From a virus: a stretch of 31,101 nt of DNA. The notes beneath the pieces are model-generated. The model was not told the origin of the DNA. It saw only the letters and a program-made list of their open reading frames with translations, and did not search any database. A program made the position numbers and the translations under genes. Of this stretch, positions 7,436 to 25,864 are shown one piece after another. Numbering within the stretch: the first letter of the stretch is position 1; each line of letters opens with the position of its first letter. The stretch is taken from IMG/VR virus record IMGVR_UViG_3300008218_000028, positions 1 to 31,101 of that record; one strand, given 5' to 3'.

Positions 7436-7455
7436 GTTGCTTATATGTTAGCTAA

Positions 7456-7494: not shown

Positions 7495-7536
7495 AGCTTC
7501 TGCTGTGGTGTAGGAAAATCAGCAGAAGGCGGTGAT

Positions 7537-8205: not shown

Positions 8206-8450
8206 GCCGCCTGCTTTTTCTTTTCTAGCCGAACTCTCCCAGAGACGCGAATAATACGCGGCGTAGTCGCATTCTCCATAATCAGATTGCCTTTCAAGTC
8301 CTGGTCATAAACCTCAACCCAGCCCTCATCACTGTCTGCCTCACAGTAGTTATCAAGCAAAATTCCATTGAAGTAGACGGCAATAATGTCACTTTCTTTG
8401 CTATAATAGGGCGATTCCTTGTCAACTGAGATATGTGTTATCTTTTCCAT
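8202..8450 (-). CDS. Hypothetical small protein
   Basis: 82 residues, acidic, with short strands (IIAVYFNGILLDNYCEADSD, GWVEVYDQDLKGN) and a Lys-rich end. It overlaps the sulfotransferase gene at its start and the GT8-like gene at its stop (ATGA), which argues that it is real and part of the operon. No known domain recognised. Similar short proteins in phages often begin with hydrophilic beta segments, but nothing here assigns a role. Confidence 0.6.
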   Translation of the reverse strand: MEKITHISVDKESPYYSKESDIIAVYFNGILLDNYCEADSDEGWVEVYDQDLKGNLIMENATTPRIIRVSGRVRLEKKKQAA

Positions 8451-9097
8451 TCGACACCGCCTTCTTCTCCCTCCTGGGTGTATCCATACGCTTTAACAAG
8501 ATCCTCCCCGCCTCTTTCTTTCCATCGCTTATCAAGGTCAGGTGTCCAGATGTCTTGCCAACGGCTATGTTGAGGCTGATACGTTCGTGTCCCCCCAATC
8601 ATCTGCGCCGCGATTGTTTCTGCGTCTATCTCAACCTCTAAAATGTCGGCTAGAACCTGAACATGTATTTCTCTGCTTGGCCCAACCATATCTTCAAAAC
8701 GAAAGACGAGACGATGTCTTGGCCAATCCACAAACTGAGAGGCTCGCATAAAAAAGCGTGGCGTCATCATGTGCTCTAAAGATGTCCGTGCTTCTGTTGC
8801 AGTTAAAGGATTGTGACGGTATTGCCAGCGATATGCCGAAATCAATACATTTCGGGGATCGCGAATGATGCCGATAAACTGATGCTTGCCGATATCGGCA
8901 GGATAGGGGATATGCGTATAGGCAACTTCGTGCTCGCCAAGGGTACAGAATCCAGGGCCATACGGCTCGTGCCTCCATTCCCTTTTCGTCACCGTTCGGC
9001 TGAACTTATCAGGGGCAGGCGTCCAGCCCATCAACTCCACAGCGCGCTGTAGGAGACGAACACCGCTCTTTTGCAAGCCATTGCAGATTACACCCAT
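8438..9097 (-). CDS. Sulfotransferase-like protein
   Basis: 219 residues. The N-terminal ICNGLQKSGVRLLQR resembles the 5'-phosphosulfate loop of PAPS-dependent sulfotransferases (usually xPKSGTxxL), and FIGIIRDPRNVLISAYRW (about residues 74-91) matches the 3'-phosphate binding motif RDPRDVLVSxY. Family members move sulfate from PAPS to a sugar or peptide hydroxyl. Positioned between a 2OG oxygenase and a small gene within the glycan cassette, so a sugar target is likely. The first-motif Thr is replaced by Val, so activity is not certain. Confidence 0.78.
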   Translation of the reverse strand: MGVICNGLQKSGVRLLQRAVELMGWTPAPDKFSRTVTKREWRHEPYGPGFCTLGEHEVAYTHIPYPADIGKHQFIGIIRDPRNVLISAYRWQYRHNPLTATEARTSLEHMMTPRFFMRASQFVDWPRHRLVFRFEDMVGPSREIHVQVLADILEVEIDAETIAAQMIGGTRTYQPQHSRWQDIWTPDLDKRWKERGGEDLVKAYGYTQEGEEGGVEWKR

Positions 9098-9098
9098 A

Positions 9099-9698
9099 TC
9101 ATTTCCCCGTCGTGGCAGAACGATAAATCACTTGTAGAGTGTTACGTGTCCCGCTAATAGGGCGACACCCATGCCAGCTCGTAGCAGATCGGACAAAGCC
9201 AAGCATCGTATTTGGGCGGTAGGATACAAGCTGTGTGTTGGGCAGAGTATCCTCCGCTGCGGTATAAAGACGAGTTCCCCAAGCAGCGTGTTGGCGATTC
9301 TGCGCGAGGTAAAAGATAAGCGTTACGATCTTGCTCTTAGCATCCGTATGCGGAGCTAGGTAGTAGCCAGGCAAATCTTGAAAGAGACGAATGTCAATCA
9401 TGCCGTAGTCAGGCAAGTCTAGCCGCTCAAACCTTTTCCGTACCCAGTGCCACAAGTCGTCGCTCCTCAATTCAGCATCCAATGCCCGCCAAATGTCGGA
9501 GTCTAAGGACCCGAGAGGACAATCTAGACGATGTGCCTTGCCCCGCTCATTCTTGATTTTGGCATCGTAGACCTCGGATGGGGGGATTGTCTGAAGAAGA
9601 AGCTGATAGTCTTCTTCCTGAAAGACATTCTCCGCTAAGACGTGAGGAAAAGGCTGAAAAATGGTATCTGTTACCCGTAATACGTCCCAATTCAGCAT
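9099..9698 (-). CDS. 2-oxoglutarate/Fe(II)-dependent oxygenase
   Basis: 199 residues. The metal triad is visible: H117 and D119 in YLAPHTDAKSK and H176 in SWHGC; R185 in GTRNTLQVIYR should bind 2-oxoglutarate. The beta strands TLIFYLA and QVIYR support the double-stranded beta helix fold (2OG-FeII_Oxy_3 type). Substrate unknown; hydroxylation of a glycan or virion protein is plausible from context. It ends two bases before the sulfotransferase start. Confidence 0.87.
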   Translation of the reverse strand: MLNWDVLRVTDTIFQPFPHVLAENVFQEEDYQLLLQTIPPSEVYDAKIKNERGKAHRLDCPLGSLDSDIWRALDAELRSDDLWHWVRKRFERLDLPDYGMIDIRLFQDLPGYYLAPHTDAKSKIVTLIFYLAQNRQHAAWGTRLYTAAEDTLPNTQLVSYRPNTMLGFVRSATSWHGCRPISGTRNTLQVIYRSATTGK

Positions 9699-9700
9699 AG

Positions 9701-9916
9701 CTATTCTTTCTTATCTGTCCGCTTAACCGGCACAACATGACCAGAATAAGCGCAATCTTCTCGTTTTTGTCTCGGGTGAACGTGCTTAGCAATTTCTCCG
9801 ACAAGCCGCCCTTTAGAATCTACCCAAACGCGATGGGGAGCGTACTCCTTTCCTATCCGGCTATTGGGACAAATGACTTTTTCTTGTTCATCCGGTTTTC
9901 GTCCACTAGCAGGCAT
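9701..9916 (-). CDS. Hypothetical small basic protein
   Basis: 71 residues from the ATG at 9916, which overlaps the FkbM stop as TGATG. Contains VICPNSRIGKEYAPHRVWVD, a second Cys in REDCAYSGHVV and many Lys/Arg/His. Two well-spaced Cys do not make a full zinc site. The start chosen is supported by coupling; the earlier in-frame ATG at 9949 lies within the FkbM gene. No function can be assigned. Confidence 0.6.
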   Translation of the reverse strand: MPASGRKPDEQEKVICPNSRIGKEYAPHRVWVDSKGRLVGEIAKHVHPRQKREDCAYSGHVVPVKRTDKKE

Positions 9917-10512
9917 CACGCCCCCTTTTTCTTCGTGGCATACAGCCACATTCCTTTTGAACGAGTCGTGCGGAGATACCCAAAGGGGGCTAAGAAAGCC
10001 GCAATAGAGCCTGCGGACACCCCAAACCGCTCACCATGCCCTTTCTCTTCTACAAGGATCAGTGGCCGACATCGAGCAATAGTCTGACGGCTCCCATGAA
10101 GAGCCGCCAATTCCATTCCTTCAATATTCAGCTTTATGAGATCCACATCCCTAAAAGCAAACTCATCGAGTGGCACTAAGGAAACAGGCCCTGTGTCTTC
10201 TCGAAGATAGAAGAAATCTCGATTGCTCGCATCAGGATTGCCTAGTCTGGCATAGCCTGCTTTATTGCTCAGTCCTTCGGGGTGTAACGTCATGCAGTCA
10301 TATACATACGTGTTTGCAGTGAGCGCTGGATGAACAAAACCGTTTGGCTCAAACATCTCGACATGCTGGAAAAAGGGAGGGAGTAAGCGGGCGAAGAATC
10401 CCTTATAGGCCCCGCCATCAATAGCCCGCCGCCCCCGTCCTTGTAGCAAAGCAGCGACCACGATATCAACTGAGTTTTGCAGAGCCCGCTCTACTTTATC
10501 CCACGACGACAT
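9916..10512 (-). CDS. FkbM-family SAM-dependent methyltransferase (second copy)
   Basis: 198 residues. AIDGGAYKGFFARLLPPF is the SAM motif, FQHVEMFEPNG the acidic loop and VDLIKLNIEGMELAALHG the FkbM signature, with Asn where Asp is usual in KxDVEG. It overlaps the end of the class I methyltransferase before it. Together they repeat the order seen at 6196-7435, so a two-gene block appears duplicated. The Asn could affect catalysis or substrate choice. Confidence 0.82.
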   Translation of the reverse strand: MSSWDKVERALQNSVDIVVAALLQGRGRRAIDGGAYKGFFARLLPPFFQHVEMFEPNGFVHPALTANTYVYDCMTLHPEGLSNKAGYARLGNPDASNRDFFYLREDTGPVSLVPLDEFAFRDVDLIKLNIEGMELAALHGSRQTIARCRPLILVEEKGHGERFGVSAGSIAAFLAPFGYLRTTRSKGMWLYATKKKGA

Positions 10513-11077
10513 CTTTTTCCCGTTCTTCGCTAATCATCCATATAATACCTGGATATTCCGTTGCAATAGATCTGGTCATATCTTCCCACCAACTGATCGG
10601 CTGCACGGTAATATGGGCGTTTCGTCCATCAGGGAGATTCTTTTGGGCTGGAGTTGTCCCCACAGCAATGAAAACAAACTTCTGGGCATACTGGAAAATG
10701 TCACGCAACACAAACGGTGCATCGTGTTCATATAAATGCTCCAGAACGCTGCAGCAGTAAACGCCATCAAAAGAACCTTCGGGTCGTTTTGCCCATTCAC
10801 CGCAGGCAGGGTCATATCCCGTTAATACCCCCACTCCGAGCCCTTCCTGCCACGAGTCGATATAAACACCAAGCTTGCCGTGCAATACCTTAGACTCAGT
10901 GTTGAACTGCCGCCCTTTCCCACACCCGTAGTCCAGCAGAGAAAGGGCGTGTGTCTCTTTCACCAAATCCCGTATCTCCCAGTAATAGTTAAAACAGCCG
11001 ATCCCTTGAAAATGCCTCTCTCGATGCATCTTCTGATACTGCTTCTGAAGCCGGATGCCCTCGTCACTCAGCGGCAT
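10496..11077 (-). CDS. Class I SAM-dependent methyltransferase (second copy)
   Basis: 193 residues, paralogous to the 6896-7435 protein: LLDYGCGKGRQFN, LTGYDPACGEW, VYCCSVLEHL, AQKFVFIAVGT and LPDGRNAHI occupy the same order. The N-terminal EGIRLQKQYQKMHRERHFQG is an added amphipathic helix. It overlaps both neighbours by a few bases. Probably modifies the phage-encoded glycan; substrate unknown. Confidence 0.82.
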   Translation of the reverse strand: MPLSDEGIRLQKQYQKMHRERHFQGIGCFNYYWEIRDLVKETHALSLLDYGCGKGRQFNTESKVLHGKLGVYIDSWQEGLGVGVLTGYDPACGEWAKRPEGSFDGVYCCSVLEHLYEHDAPFVLRDIFQYAQKFVFIAVGTTPAQKNLPDGRNAHITVQPISWWEDMTRSIATEYPGIIWMISEEREKDVVVG

Positions 11078-11934
11078 GCAATTTGTTCCCTCAGGATCTT
11101 CCAGGCCAGTCCTGATTCCATTTCTTGGACATTAAACTGACAATACGCCATATCTGCCAGCCACTGTCGGCGCACTGCGTCAGAGGGGATAAAAAGGTCG
11201 TCTATATTCTCCTCTTGTGTACGAGCCAGTGGTCTCGCTATCCCATCCCCAGTGACGATAACAGGAACCCCAGCAGTAAGCGCCTCAACGGCAGCATTGC
11301 TGCCAAAGGTCACCAGTGCCCAAGCATCGGGGAGAAGGTGAGCAAGCAGTTCAGGCGGCCGCGAAAACCGTGCTCCAGAAAGGGACACCGCCTCTTTCCA
11401 TGACGGCTTCGGTCTATAAATAAGGGGACGATTTGTGTACTTACCAACCCGCTTCAGGGACTTCCGTGCCCATTCGGTCATCGGGTCCACACTTTGCCCG
11501 GTATGCAGCCCATGCCATTTGGCATACTTAAGTGACCCTCCTGCAATAATAATGTGGCTCCCTTGCGTTCGCATCGGGAGCATGTTCACAGACAGTGCAC
11601 GTAGCCGATCATCAGGCCGTGGAGTTTTCTGGAAGTAGGCAAGCGGCTGGAAGCTGTTTACGCTCATCCTAAAATAGGCACTCCGCCCGCCAAGATACCC
11701 TTTATCGATATAGACCGTGTGTTTTCCTGCTTCAAGATGATTGTCAAGGAGGCGACGGGAATACCCTTTAACGCCAATCATGACCGCCACATCAGTACGT
11801 GGATTCGGGGCAGGGTAGGAAGCCGGACGAACGACCTCACAGGTGTCTGTACGGCTACGCTTTACCCCCTCACAGAATGAGGCGGCCAGCTTGTCTTCTC
11901 GGTCTTTCTCCACGGCAAAGAAGGTGACGTGCAT
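11068..11934 (-). CDS. GT-B / capsule-synthesis-like glycosyltransferase, paralogue 4 of 4
   Basis: About 288 residues starting MHVTFFAVEKDRED at ATG 11934, with AGGAGA six bases upstream; the longer in-frame start at 12024 is unsupported. Shared family blocks: HTVYIDKGYLGGRSAYFRMS, a Rossmann-like middle (HIIIAGGSLKY, then NRPLIYRPKPS), ALVTFGSNAAVEALTAGVPVI, and the end QWLADMAYCQFNVQEME..LAWK. The S-N-x-x-x-E-A-L-x-x-G-x-P block is typical of KpsC/KpsS-like transferases and GT-B sugar-binding domains. Three further tandem genes encode the same architecture. Confidence 0.72.
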   Translation of the reverse strand: MHVTFFAVEKDREDKLAASFCEGVKRSRTDTCEVVRPASYPAPNPRTDVAVMIGVKGYSRRLLDNHLEAGKHTVYIDKGYLGGRSAYFRMSVNSFQPLAYFQKTPRPDDRLRALSVNMLPMRTQGSHIIIAGGSLKYAKWHGLHTGQSVDPMTEWARKSLKRVGKYTNRPLIYRPKPSWKEAVSLSGARFSRPPELLAHLLPDAWALVTFGSNAAVEALTAGVPVIVTGDGIARPLARTQEENIDDLFIPSDAVRRQWLADMAYCQFNVQEMESGLAWKILREQIACR

Positions 11935-11935
11935 G

Positions 11936-12163
11936 CTAGTCTCCTGATCCCCTTGAATAATGAACTCGCCGTGCCGCTCGCTGGAGAAATCCCGCACGAA
12001 TACCCCCCTTCGCCTCTCTTCCACAAAGTGGAGTTGATTTCTGTTCTATCCCCTCTATAGCGAAATAGTCTTCCGTTTTCATGTTCCCATATAAATTACA
12101 ATAAAGCTCATTACTCGTAAAAATAACTGAGTATCTACAGTCCATACAAACGTTGCCCATCAT
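11936..12163 (-). CDS. Small cysteine protein (putative metal-binding)
   Basis: 75 residues starting MMGNVCMDCRYSVI, then LYCNLYGN and a fourth Cys in TPLCGRE. The C-x2-C...C...C layout resembles small phage zinc or Fe-S proteins. ATG 12163 overlaps the previous stop (ATGA) and has GGGAGAG five bases before it; its stop lies one base ahead of the next gene's ATG. It sits between two paralogous glycosyltransferases. The basic, Arg-rich C-terminus is less convincing and could be partly spurious. Confidence 0.62.
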   Translation of the reverse strand: MMGNVCMDCRYSVIFTSNELYCNLYGNMKTEDYFAIEGIEQKSTPLCGREAKGGIRAGFLQRAARRVHYSRGSGD

Positions 12164-13029
12164 GGAAGCTCTCCCAATTGATTGCTGATAAACTTCCACG
12201 CTCGTCCGTTCCGAAGTTCTTGCATGGACGTTTGGCAGTATGCTAGATCGGCACAGAACTGGAGACGAACGTCTTGAGAAATCGGGTCCTTGCAACTCAA
12301 AACATACGCAGGGTGGTCGCTCCCTACCACTTCACAGGGGACTCCTTCAATCAACCCGTCTATGGCTGTGTTACTCCGGTATGTATAAACCAAAAGGGAT
12401 CTCTGCAATTCCTCCGATAATAACCCATCAGCGTAGCGCGTGCCTGGGATAGGGCGTCTGCTTACCCTGCAAGCAGGCTTAGGTCGCCAGGCAATAGGGG
12501 GAGGATCTTTGCCCACCCAGTCGCCCCATTGCCTTTTAAACTTTTCGATCAGCTCGACATGAAACTCCCAGCTCGGCCCCAATCCCCAGGCTTGCGTTTG
12601 CTTGTCACTCATGCCAGCAACCAAGACCGCGCCAGCTTGACTTGTTTCTCGCCACGGTTTTATAGGCCGATTAAACGCCAGAAACCGTTCTGGTTCACGT
12701 CCTTGCTGAAAATACTTAGTAGGCTGATGGGCATTTAAAGCAAAGCGATGATGCTGAGGGTGGGGTTCGTGCTTCCTGCCCCAATACGGGAGGTCAAAAA
12801 AAACGTTAGGGGTCTTGCTTTCCCAGAGAAGATGGGCCAAGTCCATCAACTTTCCCGAGAGACCATACCAACACACGATGTCGCCGTGTATGCCTTTTTT
12901 GTATTCCTGTTCAGTATAGATGGCGACTTTATCACCCAGGTCTGCCTGCGCAATACCCGCCATAAGGGTATTGATAACAGACCGCCCACGAGAACTGGAA
13001 GCATCATAGTACAGGGCAATGTGACGCAT
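12160..13029 (-). CDS. GT-B / capsule-synthesis-like glycosyltransferase, paralogue 3 of 4
   Basis: 289 residues, MRHIALYYDASSSRGRSVI at the start. It aligns with its three neighbours through VFFDLPYWGRKHEP, a middle strand (GAVLVAGMSDKQT, then PPIAWRPKPA), LLVYTYRSNTAIDGLIEGVP and the closing FCADLAYCQTSMQELRN-x-AWKF. It begins with TGATG overlap with the upstream paralogue. The catalytic-domain block has D-G in place of E-A-L. Probably transfers a sugar to the same or next position in a chain; donor unknown. Confidence 0.72.
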   Translation of the reverse strand: MRHIALYYDASSSRGRSVINTLMAGIAQADLGDKVAIYTEQEYKKGIHGDIVCWYGLSGKLMDLAHLLWESKTPNVFFDLPYWGRKHEPHPQHHRFALNAHQPTKYFQQGREPERFLAFNRPIKPWRETSQAGAVLVAGMSDKQTQAWGLGPSWEFHVELIEKFKRQWGDWVGKDPPPIAWRPKPACRVSRRPIPGTRYADGLLSEELQRSLLVYTYRSNTAIDGLIEGVPCEVVGSDHPAYVLSCKDPISQDVRLQFCADLAYCQTSMQELRNGRAWKFISNQLGELP

Positions 13030-13862
13030 CAGGTAATCCTCCCAATAATCCGCAACGGGCTATCTTTTCTCCACGGATGGCTTTGTCGAATCTCTTCTAA
13101 AGTCCATTGGTGATAGGCCAGGCGGATGAAGAACTCCTCGCGGTTGTCTGGATAACAGGGCGTGAGAACTTCCTCCAAGGATTCATTTCCCATAGACTGC
13201 GCAGCGCAAGGATGTAACGCTAAGATAGGACGCCCTTCAAGGAGCGCTTCGATTAGCCCTTTAGTATGGTAACCCGCCACACTGTGCCACGATCCTTTGC
13301 GTAACACATCCCGCAGGGGTTCATCTTTCTGGTCATACCGTTTCTCGCGCATGGCCACAGGCATATTTGTCGCAGTATGCAACGCCCTCTGCAATTCGCG
13401 ATTCACGCTGGGATACTCGAATCCTAAGTTTCCACATTGCTTACGAGACAGCCCAAGGGCGAGGATCTTACTGCCACTTTTCCGCCACCGGTGTATCGAC
13501 TCCCCTAGCGCCCGCCAACGATCTCCCGAAGGGCAAGGCAATTCCCAGAGGACGCGATGCGCCTGTTTGGCATTGTAGGTGACACTATAATACCCTTTGA
13601 AGTGACCCCGCTGAATATATCCGTTGTCGATATGCAAGAGCCGCTTAAAAGCATGACGGTCTGCAAATATTCGCTCGGTCCCGTGGAAATCCCCCCAGAT
13701 AGCTATAAGGTCGGCTTCTGTCTCATCTCCTTGGGGATACTCCCAGCTATCCCGTATTTCAATAGCATAGTGACGACGCTCTAATCCTGCCGCAACAGCA
13801 GACATGATACGCCGAGTCTTGGGAAGATTACGGGAGGTCTCGTACACGAGGGCTTGAGGCAT
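13029..13862 (-). CDS. GT-B / capsule-synthesis-like glycosyltransferase, paralogue 2 of 4
   Basis: 277 residues from the ATG at 13862, coupled as TGATG to the membrane protein gene; the longer frame to 13913 would run back into that gene. Key blocks: RLLHIDNGYIQRGHFKGYYS, KILALGLSRKQCG, WHSVAGYHTKGLIEALLEGRP, and FFIRLAYHQWTLEEIRQSHPW. These are the family marks shared with the other three. Resembles capsule polysaccharide export/synthesis transferases; precise reaction not deducible. Confidence 0.74.
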   Translation of the reverse strand: MPQALVYETSRNLPKTRRIMSAVAAGLERRHYAIEIRDSWEYPQGDETEADLIAIWGDFHGTERIFADRHAFKRLLHIDNGYIQRGHFKGYYSVTYNAKQAHRVLWELPCPSGDRWRALGESIHRWRKSGSKILALGLSRKQCGNLGFEYPSVNRELQRALHTATNMPVAMREKRYDQKDEPLRDVLRKGSWHSVAGYHTKGLIEALLEGRPILALHPCAAQSMGNESLEEVLTPCYPDNREEFFIRLAYHQWTLEEIRQSHPWRKDSPLRIIGRIT

Positions 13863-14101
13863 CAGCCTACCCCCCAGCCATACCAAAAGGCACAGTAAGC
13901 AATCCAGAGACATGTTCCCGTAAAGAAAACAAAGACAAGGCCCGTCACATCAAAAGGGAAATCTTGAGAATAGGGGGAGTAAGCACGAAGATACATCACA
14001 AACACGCACACGAACCAACTCACACGATATGTAGAGATGTTCCAGTCTAGCCAGTACATAATATGCGGCCACCAGCGGCCGTCCATATAATCACCGAGCA
14101 T
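13862..14101 (-). CDS. Small membrane protein, two transmembrane segments
   Basis: 79 residues. Two hydrophobic stretches, about residues 28-40 (VSWFVCVFVMYLR) and 52-75 (TGLVFVFFTGTCLWIAYCAF), separated by a short polar turn, with an aromatic N-terminus (GRWWPHIMYWLDW). GGAGAAG lies ten bases before the ATG. The size would suit a holin-like or membrane anchor protein, but position within the glycan cassette suggests a role in anchoring or exporting the sugar intermediates. No motif decides between these. Confidence 0.6.
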   Translation of the reverse strand: MLGDYMDGRWWPHIMYWLDWNISTYRVSWFVCVFVMYLRAYSPYSQDFPFDVTGLVFVFFTGTCLWIAYCAFWYGWGVG

Positions 14102-14102
14102 G

Positions 14103-15248
14103 CTACTTTTTCTCTTCTCCCGGATGGATTAACGACGCTAGATTTTCAGGGTCAAGGAAATCCCCCTCCTGCTGAAGGGTGGCAGCAGGAGGGGATAGGT
14201 TCTCCTGCTGCAGGAATGGTGGCGCAGCAGGAGAAAGACCCTGCTGTGATGGAGCGGAAACAGCAGGGAACGGTTGCTTCGACGTGCGTCGAGCTGCCCC
14301 CCGGCGCGGAGATGGGGAGGAGGACATCAAACCCCCACCTGTCCTCGAAGCATCCGAAGATTTGAGTATACCACTAGAATCAAAGAAATGAGACCATGCC
14401 AAACCGGCTTCTAATTCCGGGATATTCCACTGACGGTATGCAAGGTCGTAAAAAAACTGATTTCGTTCCGGCCTGAGAGGATTCTTTATTGTCTCTACTG
14501 TCAGAGCAGCATGGCCCATCGTCGGGCAAACTGACCCTGGACCAAGAGGATAAATTGGCACGCCAGCAAGTAAAGCTTCGACAAGAGAATTAGAATTATA
14601 TGCAATCAAACCCGCACATCCCTTTAAATCTTCGGCAAGTAGGTTGCCCTTGCTCTGCCTCACTCCTGTCTCAGCGGCCATGTGTAATCTTCGACTCGAA
14701 TGGTCATCTGGATGGGGCCGCCAAACAATTTGTTTGTTTGTCAGACTTCGTAGCCGAGATACGGTCTCGACAAGCCACTGACCAGGCTGTACGCCACCAA
14801 GTGCAGCGTCATGTGGTTTCTGGCCACACACGAGGAAATGCCCCTCTGTCGGATCTTGCCATCTCGCCATAGAAAGACCCAATGATTTCCAACGGTCAGA
14901 AGGCATAGGCGAGGGAGGCGGGTCTCCCCAGCCGTTTAGCCCATTAAGATTCACAGACCAATACACTTCTTCAGGGTTTTGTCGTGCTTCTGCTACTGTT
15001 CCGCGTTTCAGATATCCTAAATCTATAATAAGAACGTGTGTATCATGTGCACGTTGATCGGGGAGCATCCGATTAAGAGGCTCTTTCATGCCGAACATGA
15101 TGCCTACGGTGCATGATTCGTAGTCATTTGCTCCATACGTAGATGCGCCGCGAAGGACAAGAGGAAGGGTACTAACTGTGCGAATGCCGCGTTGAAAGGC
15201 GACCATCGGCAGAAAGCCGTGGCCTGCATACATCAGAACTCGTGCCAT
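14103..15248 (-). CDS. GT-B / capsule-synthesis-like glycosyltransferase, paralogue 1 of 4, with disordered tail
   Basis: 381 residues with a good site (AGGGGAG) before ATG 15248. The first 290 residues match the other three: LIIDLGYLKRGTVAEARQN, then VYWSVNLNGLNG, HFLVCGQKPHD, IVWRPHPDDH, GLIAYNSNSLVEALLAGVPI and FYDLAYRQWNIPELEAGLAW. The last 80 or so residues (from SDASRTGGGLMSSSPS) are Pro/Ser/Gln-rich and low in complexity, with a matching CTGCTG/CAGCAG-rich stretch at about 14160-14275. WRPHPDD is the clearest KpsC/KpsS-like motif of the four. First gene of the cassette, 165 bp after the major capsid gene. Confidence 0.76.
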   Translation of the reverse strand: MARVLMYAGHGFLPMVAFQRGIRTVSTLPLVLRGASTYGANDYESCTVGIMFGMKEPLNRMLPDQRAHDTHVLIIDLGYLKRGTVAEARQNPEEVYWSVNLNGLNGWGDPPPSPMPSDRWKSLGLSMARWQDPTEGHFLVCGQKPHDAALGGVQPGQWLVETVSRLRSLTNKQIVWRPHPDDHSSRRLHMAAETGVRQSKGNLLAEDLKGCAGLIAYNSNSLVEALLAGVPIYPLGPGSVCPTMGHAALTVETIKNPLRPERNQFFYDLAYRQWNIPELEAGLAWSHFFDSSGILKSSDASRTGGGLMSSSPSPRRGAARRTSKQPFPAVSAPSQQGLSPAAPPFLQQENLSPPAATLQQEGDFLDPENLASLIHPGEEKK

Positions 15249-17513: not shown

Positions 17514-17723
17514 ATGAAAAATCTCAGTTACTCGACTATTTCAGCAAGGATTAAAATCCAAGTCTGCATACGATGCACACATGAATGGGCGCCACGGCCA
17601 CAAGCGACCCCGCTCACCTGTCCGCGATGCCGAAGCCCGTACTGGAACACCCCGAGAAAGAGAAAAAAAGAAGAGACTACGCCGTCTGAGCGGCCAATTT
17701 CTGTTGCAAAGCAGCCACAGTAA
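17514..17723 (+). CDS. Small zinc-ribbon protein, plus-strand
   Basis: 70 residues, the only plus-strand gene supported here. It shows a full C-x2-C...C-x2-C ribbon: VCIRCTHEWAPRP and LTCPRCRSPYWNTP. The same pattern (C-x2-C-x-H-x-W-x-P-R, then C-P-R-C-x-S-x-x-W) occurs in the minus-strand gene at 20791-20943, so the protein sequence is conserved and this is not a chance frame. The basic tail is RKRKKEETTPSERP. No Shine-Dalgarno sequence is seen before the ATG, and it overlaps the 3' end of the gpF-like gene by 47 bases. Whether it is expressed is open. Confidence 0.58.
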   Translation: MKNLSYSTISARIKIQVCIRCTHEWAPRPQATPLTCPRCRSPYWNTPRKRKKEETTPSERPISVAKQPQ

Positions 17724-18864
17724 GAGGCTGACCTTTGAAATCCACAAGGTCGGTGAAACTGAGCTGCCCACTCCTCCATAAGTTCCAGCGTGTAGGCCCA
17801 AGAACCTGCGCGCCAAAACCAGGAGAGGCAGCATCTTTTTGCCGCAACCAGGTAGGAAAAGTGGTTGTACGAGGGACCAGCCCATCCATGGAAGATCGAG
17901 CCTGGAAAATCCGCTCTTTTATTTCGGCATCAGTGAAACCTGCTTGTCCCATACGCCGCTCATAGGATTTGCGGATAGACGAACGGCGGCCATTAACCGT
18001 CACTGCCTGACTGTTCGACAATTCCGCCCAAGACTTTGTTTGTGGCACCCAGGCCGAACGGCAAGAAAAATGTGCAGCGCCTGCGCCGCCCAATGCAGGG
18101 TACGAGTGCCCTACCGGCTCATCATCAAGTGTGTACACTCTCCCATCACGAACTTGACAGATAAGGCTTGTTCTTGCATCTAAAGTGCTATGCCATAGCT
18201 TCCCCTTTATAATGTCCTTATGCTCGTTCATGACCTCACTACGAATCTTATTTGCTGCTGTCTGGACAGAGGAGCGTATCAGCCGTTCCGCACTAGTACG
18301 TGAAACCCGCATAATGCCGTCCTTAAAGCCCCCTGCTCGTGTTCCGCGTACGCGTTGCAGCAGCTGAGCCAGCGGTTCGCCCTGGAGCATGCCTTGTCGC
18401 ATTTCGTCCATAAAAAGATCCTGTAAAGTAGAGGCTCGTCGCTTCCACCACTCCTTGCTCGGAGCACCTTGAATAAGCGTATCGGTTGTCAAAGTTTTAA
18501 GAGAAGCCGCATCAAGTGTCGGGGTTACGAGGTCTATCCCCAGAGCTTCGTTCAGAGATTGGATGACAAACGTTTGTTCTACCTGCGCCATACTCGTGAC
18601 AGATGCCTGGGTTATTCGACGTATGTCTTGGTAACTCTCGCGAATCGTCATCTGAGTCTCAGTCAAGAGGGACTGGAGCCGCCGACGCTGAAAGGCAGTC
18701 CGAGTAGGGCCCGTCGGATCGGAGGAGGCAAGGTTTTTGACGAGATTGCGCTCCAAGTTACGGAGCAAAATAAAAACATCAGACTGGATACTTGCCTCGA
18801 CTCGTGCCAGATCAACCGCATGTGTCGTAAACGAGTCGACAAGAGTTTCATTCACAGAAGGCAT
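17677..18864 (-). CDS. Minor head protein, Mu gpF / SPP1 gp7-like
   Basis: 395 residues. N-terminal helices are followed at about residues 225-276 by the signature KLWHSTLDARTSLICQVRDG ... HFSCRSAWVP (D, C and C spaced as in phage head morphogenesis domain PF04233). These proteins attach to the portal and aid DNA ejection or head assembly. The start at ATG 18864 has no Shine-Dalgarno sequence, and a terminator-like hairpin ends 17 bases upstream. The gene lies four small genes after the portal instead of directly beside it. Confidence 0.88.
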   Translation of the reverse strand: MPSVNETLVDSFTTHAVDLARVEASIQSDVFILLRNLERNLVKNLASSDPTGPTRTAFQRRRLQSLLTETQMTIRESYQDIRRITQASVTSMAQVEQTFVIQSLNEALGIDLVTPTLDAASLKTLTTDTLIQGAPSKEWWKRRASTLQDLFMDEMRQGMLQGEPLAQLLQRVRGTRAGGFKDGIMRVSRTSAERLIRSSVQTAANKIRSEVMNEHKDIIKGKLWHSTLDARTSLICQVRDGRVYTLDDEPVGHSYPALGGAGAAHFSCRSAWVPQTKSWAELSNSQAVTVNGRRSSIRKSYERRMGQAGFTDAEIKERIFQARSSMDGLVPRTTTFPTWLRQKDAASPGFGAQVLGPTRWNLWRSGQLSFTDLVDFKGQPLTVAALQQKLAAQTA

Positions 18865-18880
18865 AGGGGGAGTATGTCAC

Positions 18881-18912
18881 AAAAAAGCCGCGCCCGGTAT
18901 AACCAGGCTTTT
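18881..18912 (-). terminator. Terminator-like hairpin just ahead of the gpF-like gene
   Basis: On the transcript GCCTGGT-TAT-ACCGGGC (one G-U pair) or the longer AAAAGCC/GGCTTTT pairing is followed by TTTTTT. It stands between the last pentamer array and the gpF-like ATG. No promoter is evident between it and the gene, so regulated read-through or antitermination may be needed. Confidence 0.6.
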
Positions 18913-18918
18913 GAGCAT

Positions 18919-19031
18919 GTCGAGTTTTGTCCTGTCTTGTCGTGTCCAGTCCAGTCTTGTCCTGTCGTGTCCCGTCGTGTCGGGTCATGTCGCGTCCGGT
19001 CCTGTCGCGTCGCGTCGCGTCAGGTCCTGTC
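18919..19031 (-). repeat. Pentamer array A (NNGTC)n, 20 perfect units
   Basis: From 18929 GTC recurs at every fifth base to 19031. The dinucleotides between copies are ct, tt, gt, ca, ca, tt, ct, gt, cc, gt, gg, at, gc, cg, ct, gc, gc, gc, ag, ct. Two more units with one mismatch precede it. On the transcript strand each unit is GACNN. Not coding in any convincing way. Confidence 0.95.
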
Positions 19032-19066
19032 AGGAAAAACAGCCTCCTTGTCTGAGTGATAAACAC
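19032..19066 (-). repeat. 35-bp spacer, copy 1
   Basis: Begins AGGAAAAACAGCCTCC and ends GATAAACAC on the plus strand. Identical in all three copies. The minus strand contains AAGGAGG, a perfect ribosome binding site, but no good start codon at normal distance. Related in part to the leader of the zinc-ribbon gene at 20791-20943 (shared CTCCTT and GATAAACA). Confidence 0.95.
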
Positions 19067-19184
19067 GTCCTGTCTGGTCGGGTCGAGTCGTGTCCAGTCT
19101 CGTCATGTCGTGTCGGGTCATGTCGTGTCGCGTCTGGTCGTGTCCAGTCGCGTCGTGTCGTGTCGTGTCGCGTCCGGTCCCGTC
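19067..19184 (-). repeat. Pentamer array B (NNGTC)n, 23 units
   Basis: Starts with GTC at 19067; 23 perfect units follow to 19184 with the dinucleotides ct, tg, gg, ga, gt, ca, tc, at, gt, gg, at, gt, gc, tg, gt, ca, gc, gt, gt, gt, gc, cg, cc. No unit departs from GTC. Shares the runs gt-ca-tc-at with array C and gt-gg-at-gt with array E. Confidence 0.95.
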
Positions 19185-19219
19185 AGGAAAAACAGCCTCC
19201 TTGTCTGAGTGATAAACAC
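19185..19219 (-). repeat. 35-bp spacer, copy 2
   Basis: Base-for-base identical to copies 1 and 3; starts 153 bp after copy 1. The distance to copy 3 is 138 bp; the difference is exactly three pentamer units. Confidence 0.95.
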
Positions 19220-19322
19220 GTCCAGTCTTGTCGTGTCCAGTCTCGTCATGTCGAGTCAGGTCATGTCCTGTCATGTCCTGTCACGTCTCGTCGTGTCATG
19301 TCGCGTCATGTCCGGTCCCGTC
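19220..19322 (-). repeat. Pentamer array C (NNGTC)n, 20 units
   Basis: 20 perfect units after GTC at 19220: ca, tt, gt, ca, tc, at, ga, ag, at, ct, at, ct, ac, tc, gt, at, gc, at, cg, cc. Ends cg-cc like array B, but most dinucleotides differ although the bordering 35-bp spacers are identical. Confidence 0.95.
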
Positions 19323-19357
19323 AGGAAAAACAGCCTCCTTGTCTGAGTGATAAACAC
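19323..19357 (-). repeat. 35-bp spacer, copy 3
   Basis: Third identical copy of the 35-bp spacer, including the minus-strand AAGGAGG sequence. Confidence 0.95.
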
Positions 19358-19485
19358 GTCCAGTCTGGTCGTGTCGCGTCACGTCAGGTCCTGTCTGGTC
19401 ACGTCGTGTCGAGTCCAGTCACGTCGCGTCCAGTCGCGTCGTGTCAGGTCGTGTCGAGCCTTGTCCCATCGTGTCGTGTCTCGTT
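19358..19485 (-). repeat. Pentamer array D (NNGTC)n, 25 units, decaying at one end
   Basis: 25 units after GTC at 19358: ca, tg, gt, gc, ac, ag, ct, tg, ac, gt, ga, ca, ac, gc, ca, gc, gt, ag, gt, ga, tt, cc, gt, gt, tc. Three units at the right end have GCC, ATC and GTT instead of GTC, but the 5-bp phase holds. The array begins 8 bases after the stop codon of the gene at 19494-20120. Confidence 0.93.
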
Positions 19486-19493
19486 ATAAATCC

Positions 19494-20120
19494 TCAAACC
19501 CGTTTTGCCAGATTCTTCAAGAATTGATCCTCTTGGACATCCTCTCTCCATTCAAACTTGGTCGGCATAAAACGCCCATTCAACCCGCCTACTTCAGGAC
19601 GCCAGACACCAATTCCAACACTTGCCCCAGCCTTTTTCAGGTAAAGCTCAAAAACTTCTTTCGTGATTATGTCCTCTGAAATTGCAAAATCCACAGCTGC
19701 ATTCCAAGACTGTGCTTGTGGGAAACATTTCCACACCTTCGATCCCCCGCCCGAGCCCGGTTGTCCAGGGACATATACCCAAGCTCCTTCAACCTCAGAC
19801 CTACGGGTGTTTGATAAGACCACATCAGCCATGACCATCACGTCACTGACAAAAAACTTCGTGTATGTCGCATTACGTTGCCCGGGAATTTTGATGGGAG
19901 TTCGCTTGGCAGCCGTAGCCACAGACTTCTTAAAAGACATCGCGGGAATGAACATCTTTGCGTCAGGCTTGTTTGAAGTCCAGTGTGCAACTTCTGGCCA
20001 GATACGACGCTCATATTCATCAGCTGTTTCGCCACTTAACTTAGGATATTCTGCCAAGCTTATCGGGCGACGTTGCTGCATAAGGGTTACAGATGATAAG
20101 TGTACTTTTACAGTTCGCAT
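19494..20120 (-). CDS. Conserved phage-type protein with a glycine-rich C-terminal motif
   Basis: 208 residues with GGAG eight bases before ATG 20120. Recognisable segments: VKVHLSSVTLMQQRRPISLAE, ERRIWPEVAHW, MFIPAMSFKKSVATAAK, IPGQRNATYTKFF, and toward the end GASVGIGVWRPEVGGLNGRF. The last, G-x-G-x-x-R-x-x-x-x-G-x-x-G-R-F, is reminiscent of glycine-rich loops in RAMP-like proteins, but I do not assert that fold. Similar proteins occur in phage early regions in my recollection. Its place between two pentamer arrays within the head gene cluster is unusual. Function unknown. Confidence 0.75.
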   Translation of the reverse strand: MRTVKVHLSSVTLMQQRRPISLAEYPKLSGETADEYERRIWPEVAHWTSNKPDAKMFIPAMSFKKSVATAAKRTPIKIPGQRNATYTKFFVSDVMVMADVVLSNTRRSEVEGAWVYVPGQPGSGGGSKVWKCFPQAQSWNAAVDFAISEDIITKEVFELYLKKAGASVGIGVWRPEVGGLNGRFMPTKFEWREDVQEDQFLKNLAKRV

Positions 20121-20185: not shown

Positions 20186-20263
20186 GTCAAGTCGAATCTT
20201 ATCGCGTCTTATCAGATATCGTCAGCTCCAGTCCTGTCCGATCTCGTCGCGTCCTGTCCTGTC
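20186..20263 (-). repeat. Degenerate pentamer array F
   Basis: About 15 units at strict 5-bp steps from 20186 to 20263, but GTC is often ATC (and ATA or CTC once each). It occupies the space between the stop of the gene at 20277-20807 and the start of the gene at 19494-20120. It looks like an older, decayed form of arrays A to E. Confidence 0.85.
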
Positions 20264-20276
20264 AAGATAAAGAAAA

Positions 20277-20807
20277 TCATGTATCCGTAACCTCTATAGG
20301 TTGCTTCTGACTTCGCATCAAAAACTCAAGTGTTGCTTCTCTGGTCATCGCCTCTTGTGTCTCAGCCATCCGAACGGCAAGCCGTTGGACAACTAGTCTT
20401 TTTGTGATGTCATGTGTCACTGCCAGCAAACTTGCATGCACCCGATAAGAGTTCTGCTCCTCTGGACTCAACTGCATGATATTCGTACATTGGTGGCGTT
20501 TCAGACCACGTATAGCGGCACGGTTTATTTTCTTTCGAGCTTGTTCAGTGCTCGACACAATCTCAGGATCGGTTATGTACTTCAATCCTTGACCACGCAA
20601 ACAAAGAAAAACTTTATTTTCTTCTCCTTGGAGCATTTTTCGGGCTTGTCTAAGAGCATAAGAACTGCCGTCGAGGGAACTCAGAGCAGCCACTGTTCTC
20701 AGCTCATCATATGTTATTGTCTCACCCATCTGTAATTTGTTTAGGCGAGTAACGAGCAAATTAATTGCCGCTTGTACAGCCTCCAATACCTCAAATTTCA
20801 TCGCCAT
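20277..20807 (-). CDS. Hypothetical phage protein with a possible winged-helix segment
   Basis: 176 residues with AAGGGG before ATG 20807, which lies within the 3' end of the zinc-ribbon gene (17-base overlap). GETITYDELRTVAALSSLDG followed by YALRQARKMLQGEENKVF and RGQGLKYITDPEIV suggests a helix-turn-helix/wing layout. The second half (KKINRAAIRGLKRHQ, then LSPEEQNSYRVHASLLA) is helical and basic. Similar proteins exist in phage early regions as far as I recall. May bind DNA; a link to the surrounding arrays is only a guess. Confidence 0.7.
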   Translation of the reverse strand: MAMKFEVLEAVQAAINLLVTRLNKLQMGETITYDELRTVAALSSLDGSSYALRQARKMLQGEENKVFLCLRGQGLKYITDPEIVSSTEQARKKINRAAIRGLKRHQCTNIMQLSPEEQNSYRVHASLLAVTHDITKRLVVQRLAVRMAETQEAMTREATLEFLMRSQKQPIEVTDT

Positions 20808-20943
20808 TTTTTCCCCTTTCTCTCTTTGGGATATCCCAGAGAGCGGATTTGCAACGTGGACAGCTACGGACTTGTTTTTGCCGAGGCCGCCACATATGCC
20901 CGCAACGCACGCATTTTAATTCAGGTGAAATTGATACTTCCAC
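20791..20943 (-). CDS. Small zinc-ribbon protein
   Basis: 50 residues from GTG 20943, nine bases after AAGGAGG. KCVRCGHMWRPRQ and SCPRCKSALW form a C-x2-C / C-x2-C ribbon with the H-x-W-x-P-R signature also found in the plus-strand gene at 17514-17723. Array E ends 33 bases before the start, so the array is in its 5' leader. Overlaps the next gene. Family function is unknown; nucleic-acid binding is common for such ribbons. Confidence 0.75.
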   Translation of the reverse strand: MEVSISPELKCVRCGHMWRPRQKQVRSCPRCKSALWDIPKRERGKNGDEI

Positions 20944-20976
20944 ATCTGGGGTCCTCCTTTCTAAGAAGATAAACAA

Positions 20977-21094
20977 GTCGAGTCTGGTCCTGTCGTGTCA
21001 TATCGTGTCGGGTCATGTCGTGTCGGGTCATGTCGCGTCTTGTCTTGTCATGTCGTGTCGAGTCCTGTCTTGTCGGGTCCCGTCTTGTCTTGTC
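20977..21094 (-). repeat. Pentamer array E (NNGTC)n, 23 units
   Basis: GTC from 20977 then 23 units: ga, tg, ct, gt, at, gt, gg, at, gt, gg, at, gc, tt, tt, at, gt, ga, ct, tt, gg, cc, tt, tt. One unit has ATC. The left flank contains CTCCTT and GATAAACA, a diverged form of the 35-bp spacer, which here carries the working ribosome binding site of the zinc-ribbon gene. Confidence 0.95.
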
Positions 21095-21183: not shown

Positions 21184-21963
21184 TCAAGAAAAGAGGCGGT
21201 CGAGCATGGGCCGGAAATCAGCAAGGGGGATTTGTGTCTCTTTATCAGAAAGAGCTTTGGCGGGATTCTCGTGGACCTCAAAGAAGAGACCATGCACGCC
21301 TACCGCGAGGGCAGCAGCGGCGAGGGGTTCAACAAATTGCCGCTGCCCTCTTGTAGAAGCTTCGGCAACGGGGAGCTGAACACTATGAGTTGCGTCAAAA
21401 ATGACAGGGTAGCTAAGTGCTTTCATATCCACGATATCTCGGAAGTCTACAACTAAATTTCCCTGCCCAAAACTTGAGCCTCGCTCAGTCAAGGTGATTT
21501 GCTTGTTCCCTGTTGTGGCGACCTTCTCCGCTGCATAGGCCATCTGCTGACCAGAGAGAAACTGCCCTTTCTTGAGGTTTACTGGCTTCTGCGTCTGCCC
21601 CGCTGCCACAAGTAGATCAGTTTGACGACACAGAAAGGCAGGGACTTGAATCATATCCACAACCTCAGCCGCGAGGGTTGCTTCAGCTGGGGAATGCACG
21701 TCTGTCAAAACAGGAATACCAAACTGTTCTTTTATTTCGGCCAAGATGCCGAGCCCGCGCTCAATACCGACGCCTCGAAAAGAATGGATAGAGGTCCTAT
21801 TTGCTTTATCGTAAGACGATTTCCAGATCCAGCTAAGTCCTGTCATTGCCTCAGATAATAACTCAGCGTGACGCAAAGCCATATCGCGGTCTTCAATTAC
21901 ACACGGACCCGCGATGATGGCAGGTGTCACATTGTGCCTGAAATACGCAGAGAAGAAATCCAT
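21184..21963 (-). CDS. kdsA: 3-deoxy-D-manno-octulosonate 8-phosphate (KDO-8-P) synthase
   Basis: 259 residues, slightly shorter than the usual 275-285. Condenses arabinose-5-phosphate with phosphoenolpyruvate, the first KDO-specific carbon-building step. Motifs: AGPCVIED, KSSYDKANRTS, LTDVHSPAEA, VPAFLCRQTDL, NLKKGQFLS and ERGSSFGQGNLVVDFRD. C21, H193, E229 and D240 occupy the four metal-ligand positions, so it should be the metal-dependent class (Cys in place of the Asn of the E. coli enzyme). Starts right after the portal stop (TAAATG) behind GAGGCGG. Every key residue is kept, so it is likely active. Presence in a phage head operon is unusual. Confidence 0.9.
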   Translation of the reverse strand: MDFFSAYFRHNVTPAIIAGPCVIEDRDMALRHAELLSEAMTGLSWIWKSSYDKANRTSIHSFRGVGIERGLGILAEIKEQFGIPVLTDVHSPAEATLAAEVVDMIQVPAFLCRQTDLLVAAGQTQKPVNLKKGQFLSGQQMAYAAEKVATTGNKQITLTERGSSFGQGNLVVDFRDIVDMKALSYPVIFDATHSVQLPVAEASTRGQRQFVEPLAAAALAVGVHGLFFEVHENPAKALSDKETQIPLADFRPMLDRLFS

Positions 21964-23487: not shown

Positions 23488-24204
23488 TTATTTTCTTGCT
23501 TGCTCACCTAAATATCCTCCGTGGTGTCGAACAGCATAGTCCTGCTTAGTCATGCCTCCTTGTTCCATAAGAGCAAGCGCAATACCGTCAAGCAATGCAC
23601 TGACCACGGCAAGGCTGCTCGTTGGCGTCAGTCCGAGAGGACATGCTTCAGTCACCACCCCGTAAACCACAGCAAAATCCACATGCTCACACAAATCACT
23701 TTCTTCTGGTCCCACTACTCCAATAATAGGCACATCTGCGGCTGAGTACATAATGCGCGCCTGTTGTACTGTTTCGATGACCTCGCGTGTCTTACCAGAG
23801 TTGGAACACGCCACCAACACGTCGCCAGAACTCAGAATCCCCAGGTCTCCATGCTGCGCTTCTCCTGGATGCAGGAAAAAGGCAGGTGTTCCTGTGGAGG
23901 CCAGAGTCATCGCAAAGCGAGCGCCTACATAGCCGATCTTGCCCATGCCTGTCACGACAACTTTCCCTTGGCACGAACGCAACGCATCCACGAAGCGAAG
24001 AATGTGTGGTTCTGAGAGGGTGTCAATAGACGAGGTGATGGCGATAGCCTCGCGTCTCATCGTCAGAAAAAACCGTTGCAAGCTGCTCATATCGTCAAGA
24101 GTGGCCGGGTTGCCACAGTGGCGACAGGGCCAACCGGAAAAGGTTGAGACTTGAGCGTTATGTGAGGATTCAAACTGCTTCGCAATGTCCAGGTATCGAC
24201 CCAT
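23488..24204 (-). CDS. kdsD: Arabinose-5-phosphate isomerase-like SIS protein (KdsD/KpsF family) without CBS domains
   Basis: 238 residues from ATG 24204 (GGGAG eight bases ahead); a start ten codons upstream would overlap the terminase gene further. KdsD converts ribulose-5-phosphate to arabinose-5-phosphate, the KdsA substrate. The SIS core is clear: VVVTGMGKIGYVGARFAM, LASTGTPAFFLHPGEAQHGD, EACPLGLTPTSSLA and DYAVRHHGG; K89, E186 and H227 match the catalytic Lys, Glu and His. Oddities: Ile replaces Ser after GMGK, NSGKTRE replaces NSGES, the usual two CBS domains are absent, and an extra N-terminal segment (residues 1-40) holds C27-R-H-C30. Function likely but not certain. Confidence 0.8.
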   Translation of the reverse strand: MGRYLDIAKQFESSHNAQVSTFSGWPCRHCGNPATLDDMSSLQRFFLTMRREAIAITSSIDTLSEPHILRFVDALRSCQGKVVVTGMGKIGYVGARFAMTLASTGTPAFFLHPGEAQHGDLGILSSGDVLVACSNSGKTREVIETVQQARIMYSAADVPIIGVVGPEESDLCEHVDFAVVYGVVTEACPLGLTPTSSLAVVSALLDGIALALMEQGGMTKQDYAVRHHGGYLGEQARK

Positions 24205-24220
24205 AGCTTTTCTCCCTTCC

Positions 24221-25864
24221 TCACCCCAAAACAAGTCGGCGCTGCACGCCTTTTGGTGTTGTATCCGGCTCTTCCCAGAAAGCCATCACAACGGCATCCC
24301 CGTCATCCGGCGAGTGGCCAAGCCGCTGCACCAATGTTTGTTCTCCTTCATCAAAAGCTGTCCGCTTAGACTCCACTTGAATCTTGCCGCCTGAAATGTA
24401 CCGATACCGGAAATTGGTCAGGTCCCCTGTAAGCAGCTCATCAGGGGGAAGGGCGACGTTTTCTTTGAATTGTGGATCAAGCAGCTCGCGGAGATTCCAC
24501 AAGGCTGCACATCGCTTATTAGGAAATCCAAACTCCCCTGTTCGATCCAGGAAGTCTGTTTTGCCGCTCGGAACAAACGCTATCGTCTGCTTGGGGTAAT
24601 CCTCCCGTACTCTGTCATACACACCCGACCCGACGCCAGGTAGATCTATCATCGCAGTCGCGCGAGAGTTGGCCCGGAGTTTGGCAGTCACTCGACCAGC
24701 CGTGTCCATCGTATCGGCAATTTGTGTACGGATCAATTCAGTGACGGTGCGGTGTGTCCGCATGGCAAGCACGGTTTTATCCCCGCCACGCCCTACATCC
24801 ACGCCGATCTGCACAATTGGGGCAGCACCCGACAACTCGTGGTAGGCAGACCATCGCTGTTGAGCCGCTTCAATCCAAGCCAGGGGAATCAGGGAATCAC
24901 TAGATGTTTCGGCAAATTCTCCCAGGACATGGTTTTGATACAACTCATTTTGTTCGCCCCATTGAGCGAGGCGGCTGCGTGCCCAGTCTTCAGACATCTG
25001 CCCAGCGGCAATGACTTCGGCCTGTGTCACCTGTTGTGTATTCCATTCCTCATAGCCTGGAGCTTGACGGCAGATATCGTAAAACCGGCCTTCAGCATCG
25101 CCAGGGATCGAGGTTGCGAGCCAGTAGGCTTCCCGTCCATCAGGTCCCCAGGCATTGGCAAAGGCTCCTTCAACGCTATCCCAACTAGGAGAGGGGATAA
25201 TCTTCGACTCGTCAAAGACATACAAAACTTGATCGGCGTGCGCGCCTTCCATTGACTCCGGGTCATCCGAAGCGACAGGAAACGCCTCGCCATGTGGCAA
25301 GCGGATACTCAAACCCAACATCTCACTAGTAGGGCGCAAAGGTTCACGCGGGACTTTGCCATTCCACTTGACGCGCCCTACCCATTTGTGGACTTCAGGC
25401 CAGAGGAACTTCTGTAGCTGTCGCCAATAGTTGGCCGTCGATACGCATTTCCAGTCATGCCCGGCAATGGAACGAGTAAGAGAAAACCAGATAATAATGA
25501 TTGCAGCTATGGCCGTCTTACCCAGGCCCCGAGGACCACGCAACGCATGACGGTGATGCACGACAAGAGCACGCATACCGTCAAGTTGATATGGAGTCGC
25601 ACTCTTGCCCTCGGGCCACGTAATACACTCCTCGGCAAACAAATCAGGACGGGTGTAGTAGCGATCAACAAAGGCTTTCCGCTGCACTTGTATATTTTGA
25701 GACTGACCTTGTTTTTGTTCTTGGAGGATATCCGCTGCCTTGCGACCAGTCCGGCGCTCTAGCTCTTTGGTCAACTTTTCCAGAAATTGACGTTTGTTTA
25801 CATCAGGCCAGTTCTGCCAATCAGGGGGAATGCGGAGCGTATTCGCTTGTATGATAGGCGTCAT
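24221..25864 (-). CDS. terL: Terminase large subunit
   Basis: 547 residues from ATG 25864, coupled to the small subunit stop (TGATG). Packaging motor ATPase with Walker A RGPRGLGKT (about residues 110-117), Walker B QVLYVFDES (about 212-220), then a nuclease domain with GVDVGRGGD, MIDLPGVG and PDDGDAVVMAF supplying the metal-binding Asp residues. These are the standard parts of the phage TerL motor, which drives DNA into the head and cuts it. The C-terminus ends in RRLVLG. Confidence 0.95.
   Translation of the reverse strand: MTPIIQANTLRIPPDWQNWPDVNKRQFLEKLTKELERRTGRKAADILQEQKQGQSQNIQVQRKAFVDRYYTRPDLFAEECITWPEGKSATPYQLDGMRALVVHHRHALRGPRGLGKTAIAAIIIIWFSLTRSIAGHDWKCVSTANYWRQLQKFLWPEVHKWVGRVKWNGKVPREPLRPTSEMLGLSIRLPHGEAFPVASDDPESMEGAHADQVLYVFDESKIIPSPSWDSVEGAFANAWGPDGREAYWLATSIPGDAEGRFYDICRQAPGYEEWNTQQVTQAEVIAAGQMSEDWARSRLAQWGEQNELYQNHVLGEFAETSSDSLIPLAWIEAAQQRWSAYHELSGAAPIVQIGVDVGRGGDKTVLAMRTHRTVTELIRTQIADTMDTAGRVTAKLRANSRATAMIDLPGVGSGVYDRVREDYPKQTIAFVPSGKTDFLDRTGEFGFPNKRCAALWNLRELLDPQFKENVALPPDELLTGDLTNFRYRYISGGKIQVESKRTAFDEGEQTLVQRLGHSPDDGDAVVMAFWEEPDTTPKGVQRRLVLG

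Follow-up and report, generated by a model that had tools for sequence, protein, structure and literature searches.

The 31,101-bp virus record that we analyzed as one stretch (the window) very probably carries a guide-RNA locus of the VIPR type, belonging to a tailed phage. It has arrays of a fixed triplet with two variable bases, a Vipr homologue with a RAMP fold, and a conserved second gene; across related loci, the RNA strand of the arrays is fixed and their code turns over. VIPR was first posted in April 2026, and the preprint describes it as a RAMP protein, Vipr, with a vap gene and with vrRNAs made of 9 to 16 YNNGG repeats and an invariable structured 3′ tail (PMC13142463; bioRxiv 2026.04.26.720920 v2). 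In that description, the NN pairs, with one base skipped between them, specify a gapped DNA target, the natural targets found lie mostly in satellite phages or prophages, and the authors place the system before CRISPR (PMC13142463). The GAC scaffold and the long arrays of the window most likely represent a variant within VIPR.

Arrays and spacers

The window contains six GTCNN arrays, one of them degenerate. Four form a cluster in which an initial annotation had noticed GTC at every fifth base of the plus strand. That recurrence is real, with GTC in 22 of 23 units of array A (18919 to 19031), 24 of 24 of array B (19067 to 19184), 21 of 21 of array C (19220 to 19322), and 23 of 25 of array D (19358 to 19480); the 5-bp form stands, and the unit counts then given (20, 23, 20, and 25) were slightly off. 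All four are putative vrRNA arrays of the minus strand, on which the triplet reads GAC and array A closes the cluster in the direction of the RNA. Two further minus-strand arrays had gone unnoticed: array E (20977 to 21094), which lies upstream of vap and has GAC in 23 of its 24 units, and the degenerate array (20221 to 20263; GACNN in 7 of 9 units), between vap and vipr. A coding reading of the plus-strand open reading frame (ORF) at 18737 to 19489, which is mostly antisense of the arrays, was set aside.

The longest exact run reaches 24 units. When the window was shuffled 20 times under a first-order Markov model, the maximum for any of the 64 triplets at this spacing was 3 to 4. Over the 108 units of the five good arrays, 14 of the 16 NN pairs are used, as claimed earlier, with AA and TA (plus strand) absent, and the NN entropy is 3.59 bits out of a possible 4. 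A unit is followed by the same unit in 7 of 107 cases, with 10.3 expected by chance, and because identical neighbors are not above chance, we see no sign of homogenization by slippage; the earlier view that only GTC and its spacing are conserved, and that slippage does not explain the arrays, agrees with this. Could the arrays nevertheless be an assembly artifact or a pentanucleotide microsatellite? In the pattern scan described below, 42 of 108 stretches were homogeneous or of low diversity, as such an origin would have it. For the window, we find the idea scarcely credible, given the high NN entropy without an excess of identical neighbors, the five good arrays found unchanged in other IMG/VR records (L013, L046, and L088), and the lack of vipr or vap in all 42 low-diversity loci.

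Arrays A to D are separated by three identical 35-bp sequences (19032 to 19066, 19185 to 19219, and 19323 to 19357, minus strand; AAGGAGG is included, as noted for the second copy). In RNA order, these follow arrays B, C, and D, respectively, and are candidate vrRNA 3′ tails. Thus, the identical spacer follows three of the five good arrays, and a sequence similar to it follows array E (20953 to 20976, minus strand; TTGTTTATCTTCTTAGAAAGGAGG). Array A has no spacer-type tail; directly past it lies a terminator-like hairpin and then a T run (18892 to 18908, minus strand), a feature that is weak alone, as the scanned region has 4 terminator-like sites versus 2.5 in shuffles. The 35-bp spacer folds no better than shuffles. 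Three of the arrays were folded, giving −23.7 kcal/mol and a z score of −4.2 for array C and z scores of −2.7 and −1.6 for arrays B and D. C-NN-G stems are possible and the arrays can fold; the initial statement that GACNN could not pair with itself was mistaken, and the suggested role as an unstructured RNA spacer is not supported. Rfam at gathering thresholds gave 0 matches in 10 sources, with no hammerhead above threshold there.

The vipr and vap genes

The vipr gene (19494 to 20120, minus strand) encodes a 208-amino-acid (aa) RAMP/Cas7-like protein, as judged from profile, PDB, and Foldseek searches and an AlphaFold2 model. It matches phrog_4652 (function not assigned; E, 1.8e-7) and finds gp41 of Gordonia phage Trine (E, 3e-6). 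Alone, it matches PDB entry 36pp_D, "SUSP1 Vipr protein," with an E value of 0.0018, and a profile built from 26 relatives reaches the same entry at 6.4e-10; that profile returned two PDB sequences at an E value of ≤1, the second named NDUFA12 (E, 0.2). The model, with a pLDDT of 94, aligns with RAMPs of the Csm3/Cas7 type, with VIA Z scores reaching 12.5 over 166 residues. Among the best 50 of 978 Foldseek matches (E ≤ 10), the titles are nearly all of CRISPR effector complexes or subunits, and the remaining matches among those listed bear subunit names that we take to be those of CRISPR effector subunits. The fold library extended to 8 April 2026, and no chain titled Vipr was among the matches listed. 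The C terminus of Vipr has a conserved glycine-rich motif.

The second gene, probably vap (20277 to 20807, minus strand), encodes a 176-aa accessory protein whose model (pLDDT, 92.8) consists of helices and a small sheet. Many of its top Foldseek matches are winged-helix regulators, and the protein may bind DNA, which we can only infer because these matches are weak (best E, 0.17). The window vap was not matched to any one of vap1 to vap6 of the preprint, and no match was found for it in plasmids or for the L107 family member in phages.

A class of loci with arrays and vipr

The pattern (GTCNN)×9 occurs in 108 IMG/VR stretches, of which 66 qualify as heterogeneous, while the other 42 carry pentamer runs that are homogeneous or low in diversity; a heterogeneous locus has an array of at least 7 units, at least 4 NN types, and an entropy above 1.8 bits. 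Including the window, the 67 heterogeneous loci hold 237 arrays (median, 14 units; maximum, 48) with 199 unique codes. Clustering of array-side ORFs gave two families that adjoin arrays in more loci than any other, one of about 190 aa (vipr) and one of about 170 aa (vap). vipr is present in 50 of the 67 heterogeneous loci compared to 0 of the 42 low-diversity loci; vap is present in 33 of 67 by BLAST clustering and 36 of 67 by profile and is likewise missing from all 42. Of 206 arrays, 204 lie within 2.5 kb of vipr. Seventeen heterogeneous loci have no vipr in the available stretch; four of these have vap (L048, L072, L100, and L106) and 13 have neither gene. L081 and L091 derive from the phage of the window itself, as pieces cut before vipr, and L037 and some others have neither vipr nor vap within several kilobases. 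In SUSP1, the same array script places three GGYNN arrays next to vipr (four vrRNAs in the preprint), and GGYNN arrays also adjoin a vipr homologue in Pseudomonas phage LESphi2 and in Gordonia phage Trine. The largest number of triplet recurrences (207, in 20 consecutive listed arrays) was seen at positions 4744 to 6485 of L143, a Gemmatales MAG contig, where the scaffold reads GTC on the sense strand of a vipr match that is itself fragmentary; the runner-up, L117, has 130.

In all 65 loci with both genes, later-fetched loci included, vipr and vap are on the same strand. For arrays within 2.5 kb of vipr (which leaves out 2 of 206), the strand relative to vipr is unmixed within each of 50 loci, with GAC in the sense orientation in 41 and GUC in 9. 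This fixed strand indicates RNA, since a DNA site would need no strand. The initial annotation had listed, among other roles, a cooperative protein filament with GTC on alternating faces of the helix, and a packaging element. A DNA site for replication, partition, or packaging, bound cooperatively in that way, would fit the 5-bp phasing and the several copies per phage. It is, however, extremely unlikely in view of the unmixed strand, of the arrays accompanying vipr in 50 of 67 loci with vipr and vap as the commonest adjacent families, and of NN bases that differ between near-identical phages. Of these roles, we retain a protein filament along the repeat; a helical-face DNA site and a packaging element found no support, given an array strand that is unmixed relative to vipr in those 50 loci.

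Turnover of the NN code

The NN code turns over while the scaffold stays. L023 and L030 have vipr 99.1% identical, and yet the longest runs of consecutive units that the two L023 arrays have in common with any L030 array are 3 (of 13 code units) and 4 (of 33). Similarly, for L049 and L079 (vipr 97.5% identical), the longest shared NN runs are 3 and 3, in arrays of 13 and 12. In the pair L094 and L096 (vipr 96.8%), one array has 9 of 12 units in common and the others at most 2. The initial suggestion that the NN bases are diversified is borne out by such differences between phages with near-identical vipr. A different change is seen in L021, which is 99.8% identical to the window over 11.2 kb; array C is gone (the region of 19220 to 19357) and the other arrays are unchanged. 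Recombination between the identical spacers would give this loss, although it may instead reflect a collapse during assembly.

The same turnover bears on a regulatory reading, in which Vipr would bind the arrays as 5′ leader elements, monitor its own abundance in this way, and control vipr and vap accordingly, with guiding secondary or absent. In several loci, an array does end just upstream of an AGGAG-like site and the start codon of vipr or vap, and a triplet-plus-2 spacing is also that of TRAP targets. Plain autoregulation, though, does not ask for codes that differ between near-identical phages, four of the window arrays lie downstream of vipr, and in the studied relative the arrays are reported to be guides (PMC13142463). 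We therefore consider the leader reading very unlikely. A TRAP-like attenuator had been our first idea and was dropped upon the Vipr match.

That the NN bases act as a guide is supported by the turnover of the code, and we infer the rest from the published system. The repeats would be transcribed from the minus strand, together with the genes, into GAC/NN vrRNAs, as their strand and position suggest. Vipr, judging from its RAMP fold and the studied relative, is expected to polymerize along the vrRNA so that each subunit covers five bases, with GAC held by the protein and the NN pair exposed for base pairing. Taken in order with one base skipped between them, the NN pairs of one array would define a gapped sequence in DNA belonging to a rival phage or prophage, and the targeted rival gene would be silenced, if the locus works as the preprint describes (PMC13142463).

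Variation of the scaffold triplet

Scaffolds of GAC, GGY, GUC, or GUU are found with related Viprs. With the scaffold called as the triplet that recurs every 5 bp in the sense orientation of vipr, 78 loci gave GAC in 46, GTC in 13, GGC in 9, and GGT, GTT, and AGT in 1 each, with no call in 7; the dominance of GAC is a selection effect, because most loci were collected with the GTC/GAC pattern. In a sample of 21 loci retrieved with a single Vipr protein, GGC was called in 7, GAC in 3, GTC in 2, GTT in 1, and AGT in 1, with no call in 7. These 21 are interdependent: L186 to L190 are near-copies, and L179 and L192 share vipr with L103 and L118. Two close Vipr relatives have other triplets, GTT in L198 (27 recurrences) and, weakly, AGT in L183 (3 recurrences).

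A tree of 60 of the 78 Viprs (fragments of <150 aa and duplicates removed; the SUSP1 Vipr included and the P. fulva protein excluded) places the window within a clade of 49 of the 60 rows, separate from the SUSP1 group, with support of 100/99 in a bootstrap that is unsettled. Scaffold labels require 11 changes on this tree compared to 18.7 in shuffles, and 0 of 200 shuffles were as low; therefore, scaffolds partly follow descent, yet they have switched repeatedly. One can envision the scaffold as a swappable specificity, with switches among GAC, GGC, GUC, and GUU in one clade and each Vipr loading its own guides only, a tentative idea to which we give slightly less than an even chance. If it were true, rival VIPRs could be orthogonal in one cell, natural examples of mutually insulated RNA-guided DNA binders. 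Position 150 of Vipr (window numbering) has the strongest association with scaffold type (z, 6.6; 41 rows). It was rejected as a reader of the middle scaffold base, as only 8 of the 41 rows are non-GAC, these share descent, and the window does not follow the pattern.

Searches for targets

It is likely, from the published system, that the one-skip rule holds unchanged in the GAC variant. Frequencies of 1,791 NN pairs, from arrays of at least 10 units with ends trimmed (the arrays are not independent), best fit codon positions 1 and 2 averaged over both strands, with a KL divergence of 0.035 bits; the fits to positions 2-3, positions 3-1, and a uniform distribution gave 0.055, 0.219, and 0.065 bits. 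The codon-phase reference comprised 146 ORFs, all frames of at least 250 aa near arrays, antisense frames kept. Statistically, the NN composition agrees with a code that skips the wobble base; positions 2-3 fit modestly worse, and this is the sole positive sign from the target analyses.

IMG/VR was scanned with six 9-unit queries for exact matches under the one-skip rule, which gave six matches and no target. One match each came from the middle of array A, the middle of array D, a 26-unit array of L030, and a 34-unit array of L023, two came from the start of array D, and none came from array B antisense; identities outside the seed (8/26, 8/30, 6/32, 13/48, 8/30, and 8/30) are about those of chance. 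Decoded by hand with a 1-nucleotide skip, array D reads TTGKSTLTAWAV..., a Walker-A-like peptide, and one of the two matches from the start of array D, in L204, falls in the reading frame of a 543-aa protein with the sequence GTGKSTLTAW, which reads like a terminase large subunit. Both are leads only, the L204 match because it stops at the seed end and because its reading is post hoc.

When 157 of the 199 unique codes (arrays of at least 10 units) were compared all against all, a skip of 1 gave no excess over other skips or shuffles. Decoded-peptide HMMs (232 queries; arrays of at least 12 units, both senses) matched at an E value of <0.1 in 18 real versus 10 shuffled cases and at <0.01 in 4 versus 1, which is insufficient for a target claim; the best match (4.5e-5) was a frame adjoining the same array in L020. 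Neither PHROGs with ten hand-decoded peptides nor tblastn of one of them against phages gave a match. One L136 guide was found in 0 of 4 genomes (L136's own and three other loci) and two L136 vrRNAs each in 0 of 76 family genomes. Given the sparse sampling, the failure of these searches says little.

Relation to known systems

The initial annotation knew of no described repeat class of this form; VIPR vrRNAs have it, with GGY in place of GAC (PMC13142463). Like the type II systems of SUSP1 and P. fulva, as the preprint presents them, the window has a Vipr RAMP homologue, a co-stranded small accessory gene, a phage location, and arrays of a fixed triplet with two variable bases beside vipr (PMC13142463). 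It differs from them in its scaffold, GAC rather than GGY, and in array length, 21 to 25 units in the five good arrays versus 9 to 16, the latter being a figure for the studied vrRNAs that we do not take as defining all types (PMC13142463). All seven VIPR types are said to have GGY/NN "or a related consensus (fig. S17)," and the window fits only this last clause; GGY scaffolds are those presented in its main text, where no word begins with GAC or GUC (PMC13142463). In addition to its separate Vipr clade, the window has spacer and tail sequences unlike those of SUSP1. Among the papers listed by a literature search, one besides the preprint contains the word Vipr, a phage genome announcement in which it occurs once; a further listing gave, next to the preprint, a paper titled on trinucleotide-repeat disease.

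The Cas7/Csm3 backbone of class 1 CRISPR resembles the window Vipr in its predicted fold and in an expected periodic grip on the guide RNA. The window differs in its 5-bp repeat unit, with guide information broken after every two bases, and the scanned part of its proteins has no cas family. The TRAP-binding trp leader, with about 11 GAG/UAG-NN repeats read by a multimeric RNA-binding protein, shares the triplet with two free bases; TRAP has a different fold from Vipr, and the NN in its leader is not known to carry a message. TIGR-Tas is described as having arrayed guide RNAs in phages, as in the window; it uses Tas proteins and a different array form.

The window phage and dozens of relatives show that the scaffold triplet is open to change without loss of the underlying scheme, two variable bases in every five, in arrays that are partly longer. 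This provides a direct handle on the recognition of a guide scaffold by a RAMP, and guide systems free of cross talk might be drawn from such loci.

Genomic setting of the locus

The structural genes of the window are on the minus strand and include terminase large subunit-like, DUF4055, Mu-F-like head, and Gp13-like capsid proteins; the DUF4055 protein is presumably the portal. The arrays, the two small genes, and the three spacers lie between a DAHP_synth_1-family gene (21187 to 21963) and a head protein gene. By reading, the DAHP_synth_1-family gene would be a KDO-8-phosphate synthase and an SIS-domain gene (23491 to 24234) a sugar-phosphate isomerase, both amid packaging and head genes.

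Two small zinc ribbon-like frames with similar CxxC motifs are seen at 20791 to 20943 (minus strand) and at about 17560 to 17720 (plus strand). The former overlaps the start of vap, lies behind a AAAGGAGG site, and has a weak HypA match, below the cutoff. A long series of ORFs (5387 to 15248), flanked by the capsid genes and the tail-side genes, appears nonstructural by eye, with apparent methyltransferases, glycosyltransferases, and others, among them a 2OG-Fe(II) oxygenase-like product, the one member of the series covered by a family scan.
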